Shown: positions 28,331 through 40,317 of the stretch, piece by piece | How the letters are laid out: every line of letters begins with the position of its first letter | How positions within the stretch are numbered: position 1 is the first letter of the stretch | DNA from: Candidatus Tectimicrobiota bacterium | GTDB taxonomy: Bacteria > Tectomicrobia > Entotheonellia > Entotheonellales > Entotheonellaceae | Direction: 5' to 3' | Length of the DNA: 64,000 bases | Assembly: GCA_026005175.1 (NCBI GenBank) | Contig: BPKO01000005.1 | Span: forward strand, 1 to 64,000 | Position numbers and translations under genes: made by a program | The notes under the pieces: model-generated | Databases searched by the model: none | Seen by the model: only the letters and a program-made list of their open reading frames with translations | Told to the model about the DNA's origin: nothing

Positions 28331-29209
28331 ATGCGTACCGACCTGCCTTACCCTAAGAAACGGCTCCAGGTGCTGGGCCACACCATGGCCTACGTGGAGA
28401 TAGGGGAGGGGGATCCCATCGTCTTGCTGCACGGCAACCCCACTTCCTCTTACCTGTGGCGCAATATCCTCCCGTACTTGGAAGGGCTGGGGCGCTGCAT
28501 CGCGCCGGATCTCATCGGCATGGGCGATTCTGACAAGCTCTCGCCCAGCGGCCCGCAGCGCTACCGCTTTGTCGAGCACCGCCGCTACCTCGACGCCTTG
28601 CTCGCAGCGCTCGGGGTGCGCGAGCGCGTCACTTTTGTGGTGCACGACTGGGGCTCGGCGCTGGGCTTTGACTGGGGCAACCGCCACCGCGAGGCGGTAA
28701 AGGGCTTTGCTTACATGGAGGCCCTGGTGCGCCCGCTCACCTGGAGCGAGTGGCCGGAAGCGGCGCGCCAGGTGTTCCAGGGCTTTCGCTCCCCGGCAGG
28801 CGAGGCGATGGTGCTGGAGCGCAACCTCTTTGTGGAGCGCGTGCTGCCCGGCTCCATCCTGCGCCGGCTCAGCGAGGAAGAAATGGCCGAGTACCGGCGC
28901 CCTTACCTGGAGCCCGGCGAAAGCCGCCGCCCCACCCTCACCTGGCCGCGCGAGATCCCCATCGACGGCGAGCCGCCTGACGTCACGGAGATCGTGGCCA
29001 GTTATGCGCGCTGGCTTTCTACCTCGCCGGTGCCCAAGCTCTTTATCAACGCCGAGCCCGGGGCCATCCTCACCGGAGCGCAGCGCGAGTTCTGCCGCAC
29101 GTGGCCCAACCAGACGGAGGTGACGGTGCGCGGCGTGCACTTTGTCCAAGAGGATTCCCCCGACGCCATCGGCACGGCGATTGCCGAGTGGCTGCGTGGG
29201 CTGGCCTAG
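28331..29209 (+). CDS. Haloalkane dehalogenase (DhaA/LinB-like, HLD-II)
   Basis: 292 residues. Halide-stabilising Asn in [15 protein letters not shown] and Trp after the nucleophile; nucleophilic Asp in [13 protein letters not shown]; catalytic Glu in [11 protein letters not shown]; His in [15 protein letters not shown]. This is the full Asp-His-Glu catalytic pentad of subfamily II. The enzyme hydrolyses carbon-halogen bonds to alcohols in the cytoplasm. No other dehalogenation gene is nearby, so it may act on natural haloalkanes. A GGAGAC site precedes the ATG. Confidence 0.9.
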
Positions 29210-29898
29210 TCAGGCTGGAGAGACGCCGCCGCTGGCGCCGCTTCTGCGTCGAGCGCGGCCAGAAGTTCAGGATCTAGCAGGGCGGCCAGTTGCTGGCGCA
29301 TCTGCTCAAGGCGCCCTTGCTCGAGCAGCGGCAGGGTGGCGTCGAGGAGGGCATACCACAGGGCGCGGCGCTGGGCAAAGTCGGGATAGCGGGCGGCCAA
29401 AAGGGGGCGCAGGCGCTGGAGCAGGGCGAGAAGCTCGCCGTACTCCGGCCCCAGCAGGCGCTCGAGGCGCTGGCGCAGGCGCACGGCGAGCGCCGGGGCA
29501 CCGCCGCCGGTGGAGATGGCCACGGTGAGCGCGCCGCGCCGCAGCACGGCGCCGGCCAGAAAGGTGCTGTGCGCCGGGTCGTCCACGACGTTGAGGAGGG
29601 CGCCTGCCGCTTCGGCTTCTTGTTGCAGCTGAGCGACGGTTTCACGATCCTGCGCGGTGGCGATCACCAAAAACGCGCCTTGCAAGTCGCCGGGCCGGTA
29701 AGGGCGGGGGATCCAGGCAATGGTGCCGGCTTCGGCCCAGGCGCGCAGCGCCGGGGTGACCTCGGCGCTGATGACGGTGACGGCGGCGCGGGCGGCCAGC
29801 AGCCCCTGCACTTTGCGCTCGGCTTCGGCACCGCCGCCAAGCACCAGGCAGCGCCGCCGGTGCAGACCGGTGAGGAACACCGGATACACCTCGCTCAT
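29206..29898 (-). CDS. Siroheme synthase, precorrin-2 dehydrogenase domain (Met8/CysG-N-like)
   Basis: 230 residues; ATG at 29898 overlaps the DUF2061 stop (ATGA). NAD-binding start [18 protein letters not shown], then [11 protein letters not shown] and [16 protein letters not shown]-like strand (here [17 protein letters not shown]). It oxidises precorrin-2 to sirohydrochlorin and often inserts iron, giving siroheme for the sulfite reductase encoded upstream. Last gene of the sulfur operon; its stop interlocks with that of the dehalogenase. Confidence 0.85.
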
Positions 29899-30149
29899 GC
29901 GCGATCTCCCAAGAGGCGAAGCGGCCGCTGCCGCGGCGGGGCCGGCGGGCGCTTGCCCCAGGCAATGCGGTCCCACAGCCTCTCGTGCACGTAGTAAAGG
30001 GCAAACTTGCCTACCAAGTCGAAGGCTCCCACGCTCAAGGTGAGCAAGAGCCTGCCGGTAGAAACGAAAACGAGCAGCATGGTCACCAGGGTAGCCAGAA
30101 GTCTCCAGCTTGCGGCTTTCGCCAGACTGCGAAGGGGCTGTTCCTGCAC
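29895..30149 (-). CDS. DUF2061 membrane protein
   Basis: About 84 residues. Core RSLAKAASWRLLATLVTMLL followed by a second hydrophobic helix and KFALYYVHERLWDRIAWG, the DUF2061 signature. These small membrane proteins are often encoded inside sulfate-assimilation clusters; the function is unknown. I prefer the GTG at 30149 (GAGGAC site); a TTG at 30191 would add 14 residues and increase overlap with the methyltransferase gene. Confidence 0.75.
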   Translation of the reverse strand: MQEQPLRSLAKAASWRLLATLVTMLLVFVSTGRLLLTLSVGAFDLVGKFALYYVHERLWDRIAWGKRPPAPPRQRPLRLLGDRA

Positions 30150-30937
30150 GGCTCTGTCCTCACGGCGATAGCGGTTGCGGTCGTCAGGCAAGAAGCGGCG
30201 GAGTGCGGGTCAAACCAGGCGAGCTGCGCGCGTAACGTAACAACCTCGCCGATGACGATGGTGGCCGGGGGCAGAAGGCCGGCTGCTTTTTCGGCAATGT
30301 CGGCCAGCGTGCCCTCGACCACGCGCTGCGCGGCCGTGGTTCCCCAGTGGATGACCGCCACCGGCGTTTCCGGGGCACGGCCGCAGGCGATCAGCTGCCG
30401 GGCAATGTCGGCCAGGTGCCCGAGGCCCATGAGCACCACCAGGGTGCCAATGCCGGCATAGGCCTGCCAGTCGAGGCGGGCGTCGTGGCCGGAGACCACG
30501 GCAAAGGCCCTGGTGTAGGCGCGGTGCGTCACCGGGATGCCGGCATAGGCCGGCACGGCGATGGCGCTGCTCACCCCGGGAATCACGGCGAACGGCACCC
30601 CGGCCGCCGCCAGGGCCTGGCACTCCTCGCCGCCGCGGCCAAAGACAAAGGGGTCGCCGCCTTTGAGGCGCACCACGGTGCAGCCCCGCCGCGCCCGCTC
30701 GATGAGCAGCGCGTTGATCGCCTCCTGCGGGTAAGGGTGGATGCCCGGGGCTTTGCCCACCCCAATGCGCTCTGCCGCAGCCGGCGCTTCCTCCAGCAGG
30801 GCGGGCGACACCAGGCGGTCGTAGACCACCACGTCGGCCTGGCGCAGGCAGGCCAGGCCGCGCACGGTGATGAGGCCCGGATCTCCGGGCCCCGCCCCCA
30901 CCAGGTAAACGATGCCGCCGCGGGTGGCGTCTGGCAT
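30083..30937 (-). CDS. cobA: Uroporphyrinogen-III C-methyltransferase (SUMT)
   Basis: 284 residues. VYLVGAGPGDPGLIT start, DVVVYDRLVSPALL, VVRLKGGDPFVFGRGGEE, PGVSSAIAVPAYAGIP and LVVLMGLGHL, all SUMT hallmarks. It uses SAM to make precorrin-2 from uroporphyrinogen III, the first step to siroheme. The last ~30 residues after AQLAWFDP have no family likeness and overlap the next gene, so a single indel near 30,195 (where another frame stops at once) is possible. ATG has a GGAGGAGC site. Confidence 0.9.
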   Translation of the reverse strand: MPDATRGGIVYLVGAGPGDPGLITVRGLACLRQADVVVYDRLVSPALLEEAPAAAERIGVGKAPGIHPYPQEAINALLIERARRGCTVVRLKGGDPFVFGRGGEECQALAAAGVPFAVIPGVSSAIAVPAYAGIPVTHRAYTRAFAVVSGHDARLDWQAYAGIGTLVVLMGLGHLADIARQLIACGRAPETPVAVIHWGTTAAQRVVEGTLADIAEKAAGLLPPATIVIGEVVTLRAQLAWFDPHSAASCLTTATAIAVRTEPCRNSPFAVWRKPQAGDFWLPW

Positions 30938-30946
30938 TGCTCCTCC

Positions 30947-31423
30947 TTACCCGCTTCCCACGCTCAGGCTTTCCACACGCACCTCCTGCGGCTGCAACGC
31001 CAGGGTCAGGGTGGCTGCCGGCGTCTCGATGGTGACGGTGAAGTGGCCCAGGGTGCGCATGCCCAGCTGGATGCCCAGCAGCGGCTGGCCGCGCAGCGTC
31101 TGCAGGGCCTGGTTGACCTCGTGCAGGCTGCGCTGCAGCGCCTGGCCGCACGGCAGCCGGCGCAGCAGCCCGGTGAGCACGCGCTCCCCTTCGGCGCGGT
31201 ATACCTGCCGGGCACGCCCGGTGCGCAGGGCCAGCACCACCACCTGCTCCAGCAAGGGCAGGGCCGCTGCCGGCACCTGGCCGCGGGCCACGCCGGCCGC
31301 CAGCGCCTCGTAGGCCTGCCGCCGCGGGCCGCTGAGCCCTGGCAGCAGCGCCTGCAGCTCGCTGTGTACCAGGTCCTGCTCCTCGGCGGCAAGCGCCAGC
31401 GCCTCGGCAGCGGACTCGGCCAT
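30947..31423 (-). CDS. Unknown protein of the sulfur-assimilation operon (158 aa)
   Basis: Not recognised. ATG at 31423, 4 bp after the cysH stop; the stop is 9 bp before cobA, so it is firmly inside the operon. The first ~115 residues are helical and Ala/Leu/Gln-rich (MAESAAEALALAAEEQDLV, QAYEALAAGVARGQ). The last ~45 form likely strands (GHFTVTIETPAATLTLAL, QEVRVESLSVGSG). No signal peptide, no Cys-rich site; only one Cys (PCGQAL). A partner or regulator of the reductases is a guess from position only. Confidence 0.6.
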   Translation of the reverse strand: MAESAAEALALAAEEQDLVHSELQALLPGLSGPRRQAYEALAAGVARGQVPAAALPLLEQVVVLALRTGRARQVYRAEGERVLTGLLRRLPCGQALQRSLHEVNQALQTLRGQPLLGIQLGMRTLGHFTVTIETPAATLTLALQPQEVRVESLSVGSG

Positions 31424-31427
31424 GGCG

Positions 31428-32234
31428 CTATCCTCGATAGGGCGCTTTGGCCACTTCGCCCAGGATGGCCGCCACTTCGTGCTCAAAGCCGCCGGTTTCG
31501 ATGGGGCAGTGGATGCCGCACTCCTTGGGGGCGTTGCTCTCCCACCACCAGCGGCCGGCGCGGTCTTCCTCGCCCGGGGCAACGGGGCGCGTGCAGGGCG
31601 CGCAGCCGATGCTGGTGTAGCCCCGGTCGTAGAGGGGGTGGTAGGGAACGCCGTGGGCGTGGATGTAGTCCCACACTTCTTCTTTGCTCCAGTCGGCCAG
31701 CGGGTTGATTTTCACGATGCCGCCGTGGTCGTGGTCGAGTTCCACTTTGCGGATGGCCGCCCGCGACGCCCACTGGTCGCGCCGCAAGCCGGTAAACCAG
31801 GCCTGCAAGCCTTCCAGGGCGCGGACGATGGGGCGTACCTTGCGCACGTGGCAGCAGAGCAGGCGCTTGGTGACGTCCTCGTAGAAAAGGTTGACGCCGT
31901 ACTTGCCCACCAGCGCTTCCACCTCGCGAAAGTCGGGAAAGCAGACGCTGAGGCGGATGCCGGGGTACGTGCGGCGCACTTGCTCGATAAAAGCGTACGT
32001 CTCTTCGGGCAAGCGGCCGGTATCGAGGGTGATCACCCGCACGTCACGCCGCAGGCGGTAGGCCATGTCGAGAATCACCATGCCGTCGATCTGAAACGAG
32101 GTCATGAGGGCCACCTGGTCGCCAAACGTCTCCAGGCCCCAGCGGATGACCTCTTGCGGCTCCTTGTCGTCGAGCTCGATGGCAATCTCGCCGATTTCCA
32201 GGTCGTCAAACAGCACTCTCGGTTCCAGAGCCAT
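31428..32234 (-). CDS. cysH: Assimilatory APS/PAPS reductase
   Basis: 268 residues. TSFQIDGMVILDMA and TLDTGRLPEETY form the phosphosulfate-binding core. A Cys-Cys pair (LLCCHVRKV, ~residue 125), a CxxC (IGCAPCTRP, ~208) and the catalytic Cys in ECGIHC (~238) are present. The paired CC and CxxC ligate a 4Fe-4S cluster, which marks the bacterial APS-preferring type. It reduces (P)APS to sulfite with thioredoxin. It sits 15 bp after the sulfite reductase gene. No ATP sulfurylase gene is in the window. Confidence 0.9.
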   Translation of the reverse strand: MALEPRVLFDDLEIGEIAIELDDKEPQEVIRWGLETFGDQVALMTSFQIDGMVILDMAYRLRRDVRVITLDTGRLPEETYAFIEQVRRTYPGIRLSVCFPDFREVEALVGKYGVNLFYEDVTKRLLCCHVRKVRPIVRALEGLQAWFTGLRRDQWASRAAIRKVELDHDHGGIVKINPLADWSKEEVWDYIHAHGVPYHPLYDRGYTSIGCAPCTRPVAPGEEDRAGRWWWESNAPKECGIHCPIETGGFEHEVAAILGEVAKAPYRG

Positions 32235-32249: not shown

Positions 32250-34184
32250 CTAGCCGCCGGACATAGCGGGCAGGATGAGCACCTCGTCGCCGGGGCGCGC
32301 CGGCGTGTCGAGCCCCTGCAAGGCGCGGATGTCCTCGCCGTTGACGTAGAGGTTGACGTAGGGATTGACGGCCTCGGCGCTGGCCAGCAAGGTCTCGGCC
32401 AGGCCGGGATACTGCTGGGCCACCGCCGCCAGCAGCTGGCGCACGCTGCCGGCTTCCACCTCGAGGTGGTCGCTGCCCCCGGTAAGGTGCAGCAGGGGGC
32501 CGGGGATGTGCAGCACCACCGCCGCCGGCGGCGCGGCCGGCGCCGGCGCAGCCTGCGTGCCCAGGGCGATGGCGGCAAGGTCCTCGTCCGTGTGCGCGTC
32601 GCAGAAGTCGCGGAAAGAGAAGGGCTGCCCGTTGCGGGCCTGCTTCTCGTGCAGCCAGGCGGCAACCAGGCGGGCGATGGCCTCGGTGGTTTCGGCGCTG
32701 GGAATGCGGCGCAGCAGCGGCTTGCCAATCGCCGCCTGCCGGCCCAGCCCGCCGCGCAAGGTGATGTCGTAGGCTTCCACGCGCGCGCCGCTGGCCGTGC
32801 GCGTGGTGGTGCCCATGAGGCCAATGTCACCTACCCAGTGGTGGGCGCAGGCGTGGGGACAGCCGTCCATGAAAATGCGCAGGCCGGCCACCGCGTGGCC
32901 GAAGCGGGCATCGAGGTGCTGCAGGATCTCCTGGAGCTTGCCTTTGGTTTCGGCCACCGAGTAGTTGCAGAAGCGGTGGCTGGTGCAGGCAATCGAGGAC
33001 CAGTAGACCTTGTTGGCCTGAAGCGGAAAGCCCAGCGCCGCCACCTGCTGCACCAGCCAGTCGAGGCGCTCCTGCGGCACGTTGCCGACGATGAAGTTTT
33101 GCTGGCGGGTGAGGCGAATGTCGCCGCCGACCGCTTCCACCACGTCGGCCAACCGCTGCATCTGCTGGCCGCTGATCCAGCCCATGGGCACGGGAAAGCC
33201 GACGTAATACCGTCCTTCCTGCTTCTGGGGGTGCACGCCGCGGTGGTCGGCGTCGGCCACCGGCGCCGGGGCTTGGCCGTCTTCCAGCTTGCGCCCCAGG
33301 CGCGCCTCCACCATGGCCCGCACGCCCTCTGGACCGTAGTCGTCCACCATGAACTTGATGCGTGCCTTGGCCCGGCTCAGCCGGTAGCGGGGGTTCTCCT
33401 GCCAGCTGTCGGTAATCGCCCGCAGCACCTCGATGGCCTCGGCCACGGGCACAAAGACACCCAGGTCGCGCGACAGGCGTGGCGTCACCGAGAGACCGCC
33501 GCCCACGCGCACGGCAAAGCCCGGGCGGCCGTCTTTCACCACGCCGATGAGGGCCACGTCGTGGATTTCTGGGGCGTTGCACTGGTAGGGGCAAGCGCTG
33601 ATCGTGTACTTGTGCTTGCGCGGCAAATTGGAGTAGGCGCGGTTGCCGTAGAAAAACCTGGCCGCTTCCTGGATCACCGGCTGCACGTCGAAGAGTTCCT
33701 CACGGCTGATGCCAGCCACCGGGCAGCCGGTGATGTTGCGCACCGTGTCGCCTTCGCCGCCCACGGTGGTCAGCTGGCTGCGCTGCAGTTCGGCCAGCAC
33801 CGCCGGCAGCTCCTCCAGCCGCACCCAGTGCAGCTGCAGCCCCTGGCGGGTGGTAAGTTCCCCGTAGTCCTTGCCGTAGCGGCAGGCGATGGCGCCGACG
33901 ATACGCAGCTGCCACGGCTGCAGGTAGCCCCCCGGGACCTTGATGCGCACCATAAAGGTGCCCACTTTGGGCTTGTCGTGGGTGAGCCCCCACCAGTTGA
34001 GGCGCACGATGTCCTCTTCGGGGATGGCCTCGTACCCTTTGGCAATGAGGGCAGGCAGCTCGTCGATGATGTCGAGCGGGAACTTCTCGCGCTTCAAGCG
34101 CTCGATGCTGTTGCGCTTGAACACCAGCTCCCACGACGGGATGTCGACGGGCGGTGCCGCGCTGCTGGCCGTCTCCTGGACCAT
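32250..34184 (-). CDS. Ferredoxin-type sulfite (nitrite) reductase with C-terminal MoaD/ThiS-like sulfur-carrier domain
   Basis: 644 residues; ATG at 34184 with AAGGAGG. Two sulfite/nitrite reductase repeats fill residues ~30-510, with GGLSVTPRLSRDLGVFVP, YTISACPYQCNAPE and the siroheme-4Fe-4S ligands CTSHRFC (CX5C, ~397-403) and GCPHACAHH (CX3C, ~440). After an Ala/Pro linker, residues ~556-644 form a ubiquitin-like MoaD/ThiS domain (PYVNLYVNGEDIRALQGL) ending exactly in the diglycine of LILPAMSGG. A C-terminal GG is the site of thiocarboxylation in sulfur carriers, so the enzyme may hand its sulfide to its own tail. No E1-like MoeB/ThiF gene is nearby. First gene of the sulfur operon. Confidence 0.9.
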   Translation of the reverse strand: MVQETASSAAPPVDIPSWELVFKRNSIERLKREKFPLDIIDELPALIAKGYEAIPEEDIVRLNWWGLTHDKPKVGTFMVRIKVPGGYLQPWQLRIVGAIACRYGKDYGELTTRQGLQLHWVRLEELPAVLAELQRSQLTTVGGEGDTVRNITGCPVAGISREELFDVQPVIQEAARFFYGNRAYSNLPRKHKYTISACPYQCNAPEIHDVALIGVVKDGRPGFAVRVGGGLSVTPRLSRDLGVFVPVAEAIEVLRAITDSWQENPRYRLSRAKARIKFMVDDYGPEGVRAMVEARLGRKLEDGQAPAPVADADHRGVHPQKQEGRYYVGFPVPMGWISGQQMQRLADVVEAVGGDIRLTRQQNFIVGNVPQERLDWLVQQVAALGFPLQANKVYWSSIACTSHRFCNYSVAETKGKLQEILQHLDARFGHAVAGLRIFMDGCPHACAHHWVGDIGLMGTTTRTASGARVEAYDITLRGGLGRQAAIGKPLLRRIPSAETTEAIARLVAAWLHEKQARNGQPFSFRDFCDAHTDEDLAAIALGTQAAPAPAAPPAAVVLHIPGPLLHLTGGSDHLEVEAGSVRQLLAAVAQQYPGLAETLLASAEAVNPYVNLYVNGEDIRALQGLDTPARPGDEVLILPAMSGG

Positions 34185-34205
34185 CGCTCGTTCCTCCTTG
34201 CACGC

Positions 34206-34247
34206 CCAAAACAAAAGCCCACTCGCCTCGCGGGGGGGAGTGGGCTT
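34206..34247 (-). terminator. Second of two tandem intrinsic terminators in the sulfur operon leader
   Basis: Minus strand stem AAGCCCACTC/GAGTGGGCTT (34247-34238 with 34224-34215), then TTTTGTTTT. It is followed only 20 bases later by the sulfite reductase start, so it must be bypassed for expression. Confidence 0.75.
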
Positions 34248-34287
34248 AAAAGAAAAGCCCACTCACCTCCGAGGAGGGAGTGGGCTT
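34248..34287 (-). terminator. First of two tandem intrinsic terminators in the sulfur operon leader
   Basis: Minus strand stem with the same arms as the second copy, AAGCCCACTC/GAGTGGGCTT, loop CCTCCTCGGAGGT-like, then TTTTCTTTT. It begins ~20 bases after the stop of the Cys-rich leader peptide, as in transcription attenuators. Confidence 0.75.
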
Positions 34288-34308
34288 AAAAGAGACGGTG
34301 TGAAGCGT

Positions 34309-34392
34309 CTACGTCACCCCTCCCCCCTGGCGGCAGGGACAACACCCCTGACAACAACAGCAGGGAAGAGGGAGAAGAACGAGACGCATCAT
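34309..34392 (-). CDS. Cysteine-rich leader peptide (27 aa), probable attenuator
   Basis: Too short for gene finders. ATG-ATG at 34392, preceded by AGGAAGG; stop TAG at 34309. The peptide begins MMRLVLLPLP and continues CCCCQGCCPC, so seven of 27 codons are Cys (TGC/TGT), six of them in two tight clusters. It lies between a promoter and two intrinsic terminators that precede sulfite reductase and APS reductase genes. This is the classical leader-peptide layout: ribosome stalling at Cys codons when charged tRNA-Cys is low would change folding of the downstream RNA. Poly-Cys short ORFs acting this way are known in mycobacteria; the example here is by inference. Confidence 0.8.
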   Translation of the reverse strand: MMRLVLLPLPCCCCQGCCPCRQGGGVT

Positions 34393-34428
34393 CGGGCCTT
34401 CCTGGGTCTCCGTGCCGAATCTGCGGGG

Positions 34429-34457
34429 AACTTACCACACCCAGCGCCCTCTGTCAA
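34429..34457 (-). promoter_or_regulatory. Promoter of the sulfur assimilation operon
   Basis: Minus strand perfect TTGACA (34457-34452), 17-bp spacer, TAAGTT (34434-34429). Predicted start near 34,422 gives a leader of about 237 bases carrying the Cys-rich ORF and two terminators. Confidence 0.6.
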
Positions 34458-34759: not shown

Positions 34760-35089
34760 CTAAATGGATGCCCAGAGTTGCTGAATTGCCGTCCGCACCC
34801 GTTGCCAATCACCAGTCCTCAACGTGCCCAACCTTCGCTCTACCAAACGCTTTTCCAACGTGGCCACTTTGTGCACCCGAACAATTGACGGAAGCAACAA
34901 ACCCGCCTGTTGCCATTCCACAAGTTCAACATCGAAAGGGCCTCGAGCTGCCTGGCTGGTTACCCGAGCCACTACAATATCTGCATCGCCGGTATCCAAA
35001 AGCACGAGGGCAGGACGCCGCCTCGCTATCAACCCATCGGTAAACGGAAAGGAGAGCAACACTATCTCACCGGCACGGTAGGTTTCCAT
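34760..35089 (-). CDS. Type II toxin, PemK/MazF family
   Basis: 109 residues. Start METYRAGEIVLLSFPFTDG is the typical PemK/MazF opening (GDIV..xFPFTD), then RRRPALVLLD and VARVTSQ. These are RNA endonucleases of the SH3-like CcdB/MazF fold. The preceding antitoxin gene ends 3 bp before this start, the usual antitoxin-toxin order. The base composition is lower in GC than its neighbours, consistent with acquisition. Confidence 0.8.
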   Translation of the reverse strand: METYRAGEIVLLSFPFTDGLIARRRPALVLLDTGDADIVVARVTSQAARGPFDVELVEWQQAGLLLPSIVRVHKVATLEKRLVERRLGTLRTGDWQRVRTAIQQLWASI

Positions 35090-38340: not shown

Positions 38341-38883
38341 TGGGGTCAGGTCTTGAATTGTGACTTACCCCCAAGCAGGGCATCGCCCAGGTGTTCACCA
38401 ACACCGCCGCAGCCCTGACCGATGCCACCTGGGCAGCACAGCGGTGCGCCAGCGCCGCACAGCAGGCCCAGGCCATCGAACGCGAGGGGCGGGCGGCCTT
38501 GGAGCGCTTCTGCGTGTACCTGCGGCACGCCCGCCGCCTGCCGCAGGCCATCCACGTCACCCTTGTCGCCGACGCCCACCTCCACCACCCCCGCGGGTAT
38601 CGCCCGCACCCTGCGCCACACCACCCATTAGGGTGTGCCTTCAAGCAGTAGGCGCCAAGCGCCTTTCCCGGCCTGCTTCACGGAGGGTCTTTGCTGGGGC
38701 CACCAGCTCTTGGACCGAGTCCACCACACAGACATCGCGCCGTGCCAGAACAGCACCCCGCACGGGACGGGGCGAGCGCCGAAGAGGCACACCAGGAGGC
38801 AGGATACGTCATGGACCGCCTCCCTACAAGTTGGCAGCACACACCCGCCCCTCACCTCCTTCATGATTCAAGACCTGACCCCA
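38341..38883 (+). mobile_element. Short inverted-repeat element, copy A (MITE-like)
   Basis: 543 bp with perfect 18-bp terminal inverted repeats, TGGGGTCAGGTCTTGAAT at the left and its complement at the right. It has two modules: a ~308-bp left module (38341-38648) and a ~233-bp right module. Open frames inside are short and unlike known transposases, so it is probably non-autonomous. Confidence 0.65.
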
Positions 38884-39994: not shown

Positions 39995-40009
39995 GTCACC
40001 TCGGGGAGA

Positions 40010-40317
40010 TGGAGTCAGGTCTTGAATTGTGACTTACCCCCAAGCAGGGCATCGCCCAGGTGTTCACCAACACCGCCGCAGCCCTGACCGATGCCACCTG
40101 GGCAGCACAGCGGTGCGCCAGCGCCGCACAGCAGGCCCAGGCCATCGAACGCGAGGGGCGGGCGGCCTTGGAGCGCTTCTGCGTGTACCTGCGGCACGCC
40201 CGCCGCCTGCCGCAGGCCATCCACGTCACCCTTGTCGCCGACGCCCACCTCCACCACCCCCGCGGGTATCGCCCGCACCCTGCGCCACACCACCCATTAG
40301 GGTGTGCCTTCAAGCAG
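40010..40317 (+). mobile_element. Solo left module of the inverted-repeat element, copy B
   Basis: 308 bp nearly identical to 38341-38648 (one visible change in the terminal repeat, GGAG for GGGG). It lacks the right module and its terminal repeat, so it is a truncated copy, ending 5 bp before copy C. Confidence 0.65.

Follow-up and report, generated by a model that had tools for sequence, protein, structure and literature searches.

A probable cysteine-sensing transcription attenuator with two terminators in series upstream of a sulfite reductase operon

The cysI-cysH-siroheme operon described here is very probably controlled by a ribosome-mediated transcription attenuator responsive to the level of charged Cys-tRNA. 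The window, to which all coordinates refer, is the whole 64,000 nt stretch of DNA that was analysed. From a promoter-like pair of hexamers to the start of the sulfite reductase gene, the element occupies positions 34457-34182 on the minus strand and includes the following features.

34452..34457, minus strand: TTGACA, -35-like, read directly.
34429..34434, minus strand: TAAGTT, -10-like, weak alone; the TGTGG before it is a possible extended -10.
34397..34403, minus strand: AGGAAGG, Shine-Dalgarno sequence of the leader ORF, read directly.
34309..34392, minus strand: leader ORF, MMRLVLLPLPCCCCQGCCPCRQGGGVT*, 27 codons, seven of them Cys, from the ORF reading, with analogous leaders in genomes G001, G002 and G003.
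34359..34382, minus strand: segment 1, leader codons 4-12, which pairs with segment 2 when the ribosome is absent.
34316..34328, minus strand: segment 2, the G-rich end of the leader ORF, with segment 1 or arm a1 as partner.
34272..34285, minus strand: segment 3, part of the upstream arm of terminator 1, which forms the antiterminator with segment 2.
34255..34287, minus strand: terminator 1, a1 34287-34278 and b1 34264-34255, then TTTTCTTTT; hairpin -26.6 kcal/mol.
34215..34247, minus strand: terminator 2, a2 34247-34238 and b2 34224-34215, then TTTTGTTTT; hairpin -20.1 kcal/mol.

The initial annotation had listed the TTGACA/TAAGTT pair, AGGAAGG, the 27-codon ORF with seven Cys codons and two hairpins with identical arms, and all of these are present on the minus strand. 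The two hexamers are separated by 17 nt. As TAAGTT matches TATAAT at only 3/6 positions, it fell below the threshold of a consensus promoter scan and is not listed there. A TTGAC(A/C/T) box is found at a like position in three genomes of the same family, and TGTG(G/T)TA can be aligned across these three and the window's own genome. The ATG of the leader ORF, preceded by AGGAAGG, lies 37 nt downstream of the -10 box; the start site is assumed. The Cys codons are codons 11-14, 17, 18 and 20. No NCBIfam match was found for the leader peptides, and at the gathering score Rfam gave no match in the window or in eight related loci.

The upstream arms a1 and a2 are both AAGCCCACTC, and the downstream arms b1 and b2 are both GAGTGGGCTT, each arm being 10 nt long. 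The T-runs that follow are TTTTCTTTT for the first terminator and TTTTGTTTT for the second, and the two terminators make up a 40-bp tandem repeat (2.2 copies, 89% matches). The ATG of cysI, at 34184, is preceded by AAGGAGG and lies 23 nt past the second T-run, rather than 20 bases as first reported; its Shine-Dalgarno sequence is only 8 nt past that T-run. As no promoter fits in these 23 nt, transcription from upstream must cross both terminators to reach cysI.

The order of the genes in the operon is cysI, cysH, a protein with no Pfam match, tetrapyrrole methylase, DUF2061 and CysG-N, and the principal genes are as follows.

32250..34184, minus strand: cysI, sulfite reductase with a C-terminal ThiS/CysO-like sulfur carrier (Pfam NIR_SIR, NIR_SIR_ferr, ThiS).
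31428..32234, minus strand: cysH, (P)APS reductase (Pfam PAPS_reduct).
30947..31582 (or from 30950), minus strand: conserved operon protein, no Pfam match, found after cysH in most relatives.
30083..30937, minus strand: tetrapyrrole methylase (uroporphyrinogen methyltransferase, siroheme; Pfam TP_methylase).
29206..29976, minus strand: CysG-N/siroheme synthase (dehydrogenase/chelatase; Pfam NAD_binding_7, CysG_dimeriser, Sirohm_synth_M).

By its predicted content this is an operon for sulfite reduction plus siroheme synthesis, which fits cysteine synthesis. PDB matches to CysI are 1zj8 (Mycobacterium tuberculosis NirA, the nearest bacterial solved structure) and 3dwg (M. tuberculosis CysO). 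The ThiS/CysO-like carrier at its C-terminus ends in GG, and the fusion suggests that sulfide may be passed straight from the sulfite reductase to the carrier for cysteine synthesis. The gene order cysI-cysH-unknown recurs in most relatives. The protein after cysH, which is 26-53% identical among relatives, probably belongs to the sulfite reduction pathway. Elsewhere in the neighbourhood, a PemK/MazF-like toxin gene, preceded by a short antitoxin-like ORF, is located directly upstream of the attenuator (34763-35089, minus strand). A stretch of approximately 300 bp (MKAHPNGWCGAGCGRYPRGWWRW... reading) is present twice, at 38346-38644 and 39996-40313, and these repeats flank an acyl-CoA-ligase-like gene and a small nucleotidyltransferase/HEPN-like pair.

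The equilibrium fold of the full leader contains a b1:a2 hairpin nested in a1:b2, regardless of the ribosome. Because this fold is insensitive to the ribosome and uninformative alone, transcripts of growing length were folded instead, with the start assumed at 34423 and an assumed ribosome footprint in which pairing is barred from 16 nt before the A-site codon to 14 nt after it. With no ribosome in the model, the segment 1:2 duplex (-25.2 kcal/mol) accounts for about 18 expected pairs and terminator 1 forms. When the A site is placed on any of Cys codons 11-14, 13.5-14.7 bp of the 2:3 helix are predicted until b1 is nearly complete, and a ribosome at the stop codon hides segment 2, so that terminator 1 forms. 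The 1:2 pairing prevails when the A site is at Cys 17, and at Cys 18 or 20 there is little or merely early antitermination, so that in the model only the CCCC cluster (codons 11-14) works. The initial annotation had proposed that the end of the leader ORF could pair with the CACTCCC arm of the first terminator, and this prediction is borne out by the antiterminator helix 34328-34316 : 34285-34272, the duplex energy of which (-24.7 kcal/mol) was equalled by 0/2000 random 20-mers of the window. Folding with and without a ribosome on the Cys codons, which it had put forward as a check, gave the antiterminator for a stall at codons 11-14 and the terminator with no ribosome or with one at the stop codon. 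When the non-Cys codons of the leader were permuted 300 times with the Cys positions kept, none of the shuffles (0/300) switched as strongly, the difference between the stalled and other states being 0.69 for the real leader and 0.56 for the best shuffle. Once b1 has been made in full, equilibrium invariably favours terminator 1. As in other attenuators, the completed terminator is the more stable structure, so the antiterminator must form first and would act only in a kinetic window.

The predicted folding topology of the leader is of the trp type, and the leader would operate as follows. A ribosome would translate the leader ORF while RNA polymerase makes the leader RNA. With Cys-tRNA plentiful, the ribosome would reach the stop codon and cover segment 2, terminator 1 would form and transcription would end, with terminator 2 serving as a back-up. 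With Cys-tRNA scarce, the ribosome would stall on Cys codons 11-14 and mask segment 1, and segment 2 would take the upstream arm of terminator 1. The b1 arm thus freed may pair with the emerging a2, preventing terminator 2 as well, and polymerase would enter cysI. In a leader that is not translated, segments 1 and 2 would pair and terminator 1 would form. The element shares with trp-type attenuators a translatable leader ORF rich in codons for the end product of an operon that makes sulfide for cysteine, an intrinsic terminator between this ORF and the first gene (here two hairpins with T-runs) and, in silico, an antiterminator that cannot coexist with the terminator and is promoted by a stall on the control codons. 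The arrangement is also conserved at the same place in related genomes (G001, G002 and G003) and has analogues in Chloroflexota.

Loss of the Cys codons or hairpins in relatives had been named at the outset as grounds for abandoning the attenuator, and the relatives instead retain both. Cys-containing leaders occupy the same place, ahead of sulfite/nitrite reductases, in three same-family genomes, MMFLSACLCATPCCCCCCACCCCAAGGGGAGRLSG (G001, L094), MNFGSTVIQGISPHCTHCTGGACCCYEGQNTFRRGRFG (G002, L096) and MNFGSTVIQGISSHCTHGTGGACCSYEGHNTFRGGRFG (G003, L095, with only three Cys codons), and each is followed by one terminator with arms almost identical to those in the window (AAGCCCACTCCC..GTGGGCTTTT). 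The pattern CCCACTCCC-N(3,20)-GTGGGCTTTT matches twice in the window's genome, at the two terminators, and once each in G001, G002 and G003, at the leader; it is absent from the same-class genome G004, and the reversed control pattern gave zero matches. In the ribosome model, G002 switches like the window, and G003 shows weak switching with a weak antiterminator. In G001 the model prefers the antiterminator (-23.8 kcal/mol over 10 continuous pairs) whether or not a ribosome is stalled, which leaves the off state of this leader unexplained.

Two other explanations for the arrangement were considered. The terminators might simply close the mazEF-like unit upstream, with the Cys-rich ORF a chance reading of a stretch rich in C, T and G. 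Chance Cys-rich short ORFs do exist, as a survey of 30,754 ORFs of 8-45 codons in 2.464 Mb (~62%) of this GC-rich genome yielded 376 with at least four Cys in 12 codons, and the TGY x4 pattern, with 59 matches in the genome, is too frequent to be used alone. However, a leader and terminator are kept before sulfite reductases in three other genera/species of the family and the designed-looking pairing is unmatched by shuffles, so that coincidence is in the main refuted and we regard it as scarcely credible. In the same survey, the leader shares the highest Cys density, being one of two ORFs with seven Cys in 12 codons, and is the only ORF with at least five Cys in 12 codons plus a strong terminator behind it. 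The fold of the 242-nt leader is 4.2 standard deviations below that of shuffles (z-score -4.2). The arrangement of leader and terminators exceeds chance. Alternatively, control might be at the level of translation or depend on Rho, as has been proposed for mycobacterial Cys uORFs; a stall on the leader would then alter how Rho loads or how accessible the cysI ribosome site is, and the hairpins would be of secondary importance. Mycobacterial poly-Cys leaders act without conserved terminators (PMC1262725), and the closeness of the cysI Shine-Dalgarno sequence to the second T-run would suit such control. Against this, the leader is separated from the gene by two textbook terminators with T-runs, and no part of the element is better conserved in the family than the terminator; we therefore consider control of this kind improbable, and transcription attenuation remains the preferred reading.

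Different Cys leaders, with terminators, are found upstream of orthologous cysI genes in Ardenticatenales and other Chloroflexota; Ardenticatenales relatives beyond five were sought and none were found. These leaders include MCRCICPQRGL (L003), MCLCICPQRGP (L006 and L154) and WCICPGRGS (L157), and shorter CIC-RG peptides are found in L005, L030 and L158-L161. In the ribosome model, a ribosome on the first two Cys codons brings about antitermination in L003, L006 and L154, and these loci terminate when it is absent; the outcome for L154 with a ribosome at the stop codon is mixed. In L001, L002 and L157 the antiterminator forms also without a stalled ribosome. Like the window, the CxC-RG leaders of Chloroflexota and Armatimonadota combine a Cys leader, an antiterminator and often two terminators before an orthologous cysI-cysH operon. 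They differ from it in that the leader peptides have no sequence likeness to that in the window and the RGL codons themselves pair with the terminator arm AACCCCC. Short CxC-x(2,3)-RG leaders with terminators also precede sulfur operons in L005, L028, L030, L034 and L158-L162, two of them in series in L158 and L159. They are widespread in Chloroflexota and also found in Armatimonadota (L028), with no Rfam match where tested. In L001, L002 and L003 a second small conserved ORF (KWLPMLGKNKYICR-GAA), ~150 to 60 nt ahead of cysI, follows the second terminator. In the leaders of L001-L003, the Cys codon region, GUGYCGGUGU, has its complement, ACACCGG(C)CAC, immediately before the terminator arm, and the two would seem to make up another competing helix. 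A literature search on cysteine attenuators in Chloroflexi found nothing relevant.

The initial annotation recorded the identical arms of the two terminators and missed their most interesting consequence, which is that this identity makes b1 complementary to a2, so that the following hairpin can form.

34238..34264, minus strand: putative relay hairpin b1:a2, 10 bp, -16.7 kcal/mol alone; excludes both terminators.

In the folding model, when a1 is held by the leader, b1:a2 forms once a2 emerges and outweighs terminator 2 in every longer transcript (12.1 versus ~5 expected pairs); when terminator 1 has formed, terminator 2 forms normally. A single antiterminator might therefore decide the fate of both terminators via the complementary arms b1 and a2, a proposal to which we give slightly less than an even chance. 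In the on state of such a relay, a1 would be captured by the leader and b1 released onto a2, with both terminators lost, and in the off state a1 would pair with b1 and a2 with b2, with both formed. It is about equally tenable, again a little short of even, that the second terminator is a duplicated back-up that lowers leakage and that b1:a2 is a by-product of the duplication with no regulatory role, the attenuator itself being the same. In an 89% tandem repeat identical arms come automatically, and one terminator suffices in the same-family genomes. On the other hand, a terminator 2 that formed whenever b1 was free would block induction, and b1:a2 outcompetes it once a1 is sequestered. Furthermore, the Chloroflexota terminators are not copies of each other, yet their own b1:a2 pairings are stronger than swapped ones. 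Two terminators in series are present in L001, L002, L003, L006, L154 and L157, and b1:a2 complementarity recurs in all six (duplexes of -23.4 to -28.0 kcal/mol). Compared with dinucleotide-shuffled a2, the fraction was 0.012 for the window and 0.014, 0.204, 0.024, 0.024, 0.004 and 0.075 for the six other loci. Among all 5040 re-pairings of b1 and a2 from the seven loci the true pairing ranks second, and with one locus per clade it ranks 1 of 24 in each of six selections. These re-pairing statistics favour the relay but are suggestive only, as few clades are involved and the arm windows were set manually after inspection. If there is a relay, it would have arisen independently, by tandem duplication in the window and with non-identical terminators in Chloroflexota. 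A literature search on tandem terminators with leader peptides found nothing relevant.

Cysteine-rich leaders are known from other bacteria. A 2005 study predicted terminator-free leaders with Cys runs at actinobacterial cys operons (PMC1262725), and a conserved Cys-rich uORF upstream of mycobacterial nirA/Msmeg_4527 (sirA-like) was described by Shell in 2015 (PMC4633059). Mycobacterial polycysteine uORFs are cysteine-responsive according to Canestrari 2020, as relayed in PMC9031893 and PMC9094748 and also in PMC13236596. Like the leader in the window, they are short ORFs with Cys clusters that head sulfur or cysteine operons, including that of nirA (Msmeg_4527), a relative of the window's sulfite reductase, and slowing of the ribosome on the Cys codons has been proposed. 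However, the mycobacterial uORFs are leaderless and without conserved terminators (PMC1262725), whereas the leader in the window, from an unrelated phylum, has a Shine-Dalgarno site, two intrinsic terminators and a trp-like antiterminator. It thus shares with the mycobacterial type the Cys-cluster uORF of a sulfur operon, and neither leaderless translation nor the absence of terminators. Enterobacterial attenuators of the trp/his type share with it the alternatives 1:2, 2:3 and 3:4, product codons in the leader and an intrinsic terminator before the first gene; it differs from them in using cysteine instead of Trp/His, in its duplicated terminator and in the possible b1:a2 relay. The Rhodobacterales motif uORFC-8-2, in which a Cys uORF with a terminator is found upstream of cysS (PMC8632094), also has tandem Cys codons followed by an intrinsic terminator, but has a different gene, two Cys codons and a single terminator, in a different clade. 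The element in the window would work like known Cys attenuators and falls outside the leaderless mycobacterial kind. Cysteine attenuation of a sulfite reductase, initially suggested to be new, had been foreshadowed by the nirA uORF reported in 2015, while the terminator-based form and the apparent wiring of its two stop signals look new relative to the mycobacterial switch.

The family leaders precede a reductase of ~750 residues with NIR_SIR domains that is 28-29% identical to the enzyme encoded in the window. In the tree, the window's CysI is remote from the family's enzymes and falls among those of Ardenticatenales (Chloroflexota), with support 95/90. The organism itself is not one of the Chloroflexota by kinship, and rpoB of its class relatives is ~60% identical to that of several proteobacterial-type groups. 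Searches of its own genome for 16S and rpoB gave no match. The family-type reductase was not found in the window's genome, which is weak evidence given that this genome is 77% complete. The simplest reading would be an exchange in which the resident attenuator stayed and the old reductase beneath it gave way to a foreign cysI-cysH operon; a shared transfer of the leader, instead of a resident attenuator kept through the exchange, is also conceivable.

The element would move cysteine attenuation from the leaderless, terminator-free mycobacterial form to a clean transcription attenuator in another phylum, in a form that can be dissected by simple in vitro transcription. The relay, if true, would double termination efficiency without loss of inducibility, would explain tandem terminators before an inducible gene, and would offer a general design rule for attenuators and riboswitches. 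For the family, an attenuator kept while the reductase was swapped for an enzyme from an unrelated lineage would be evidence for the control element, rather than the gene, as the unit of conservation.
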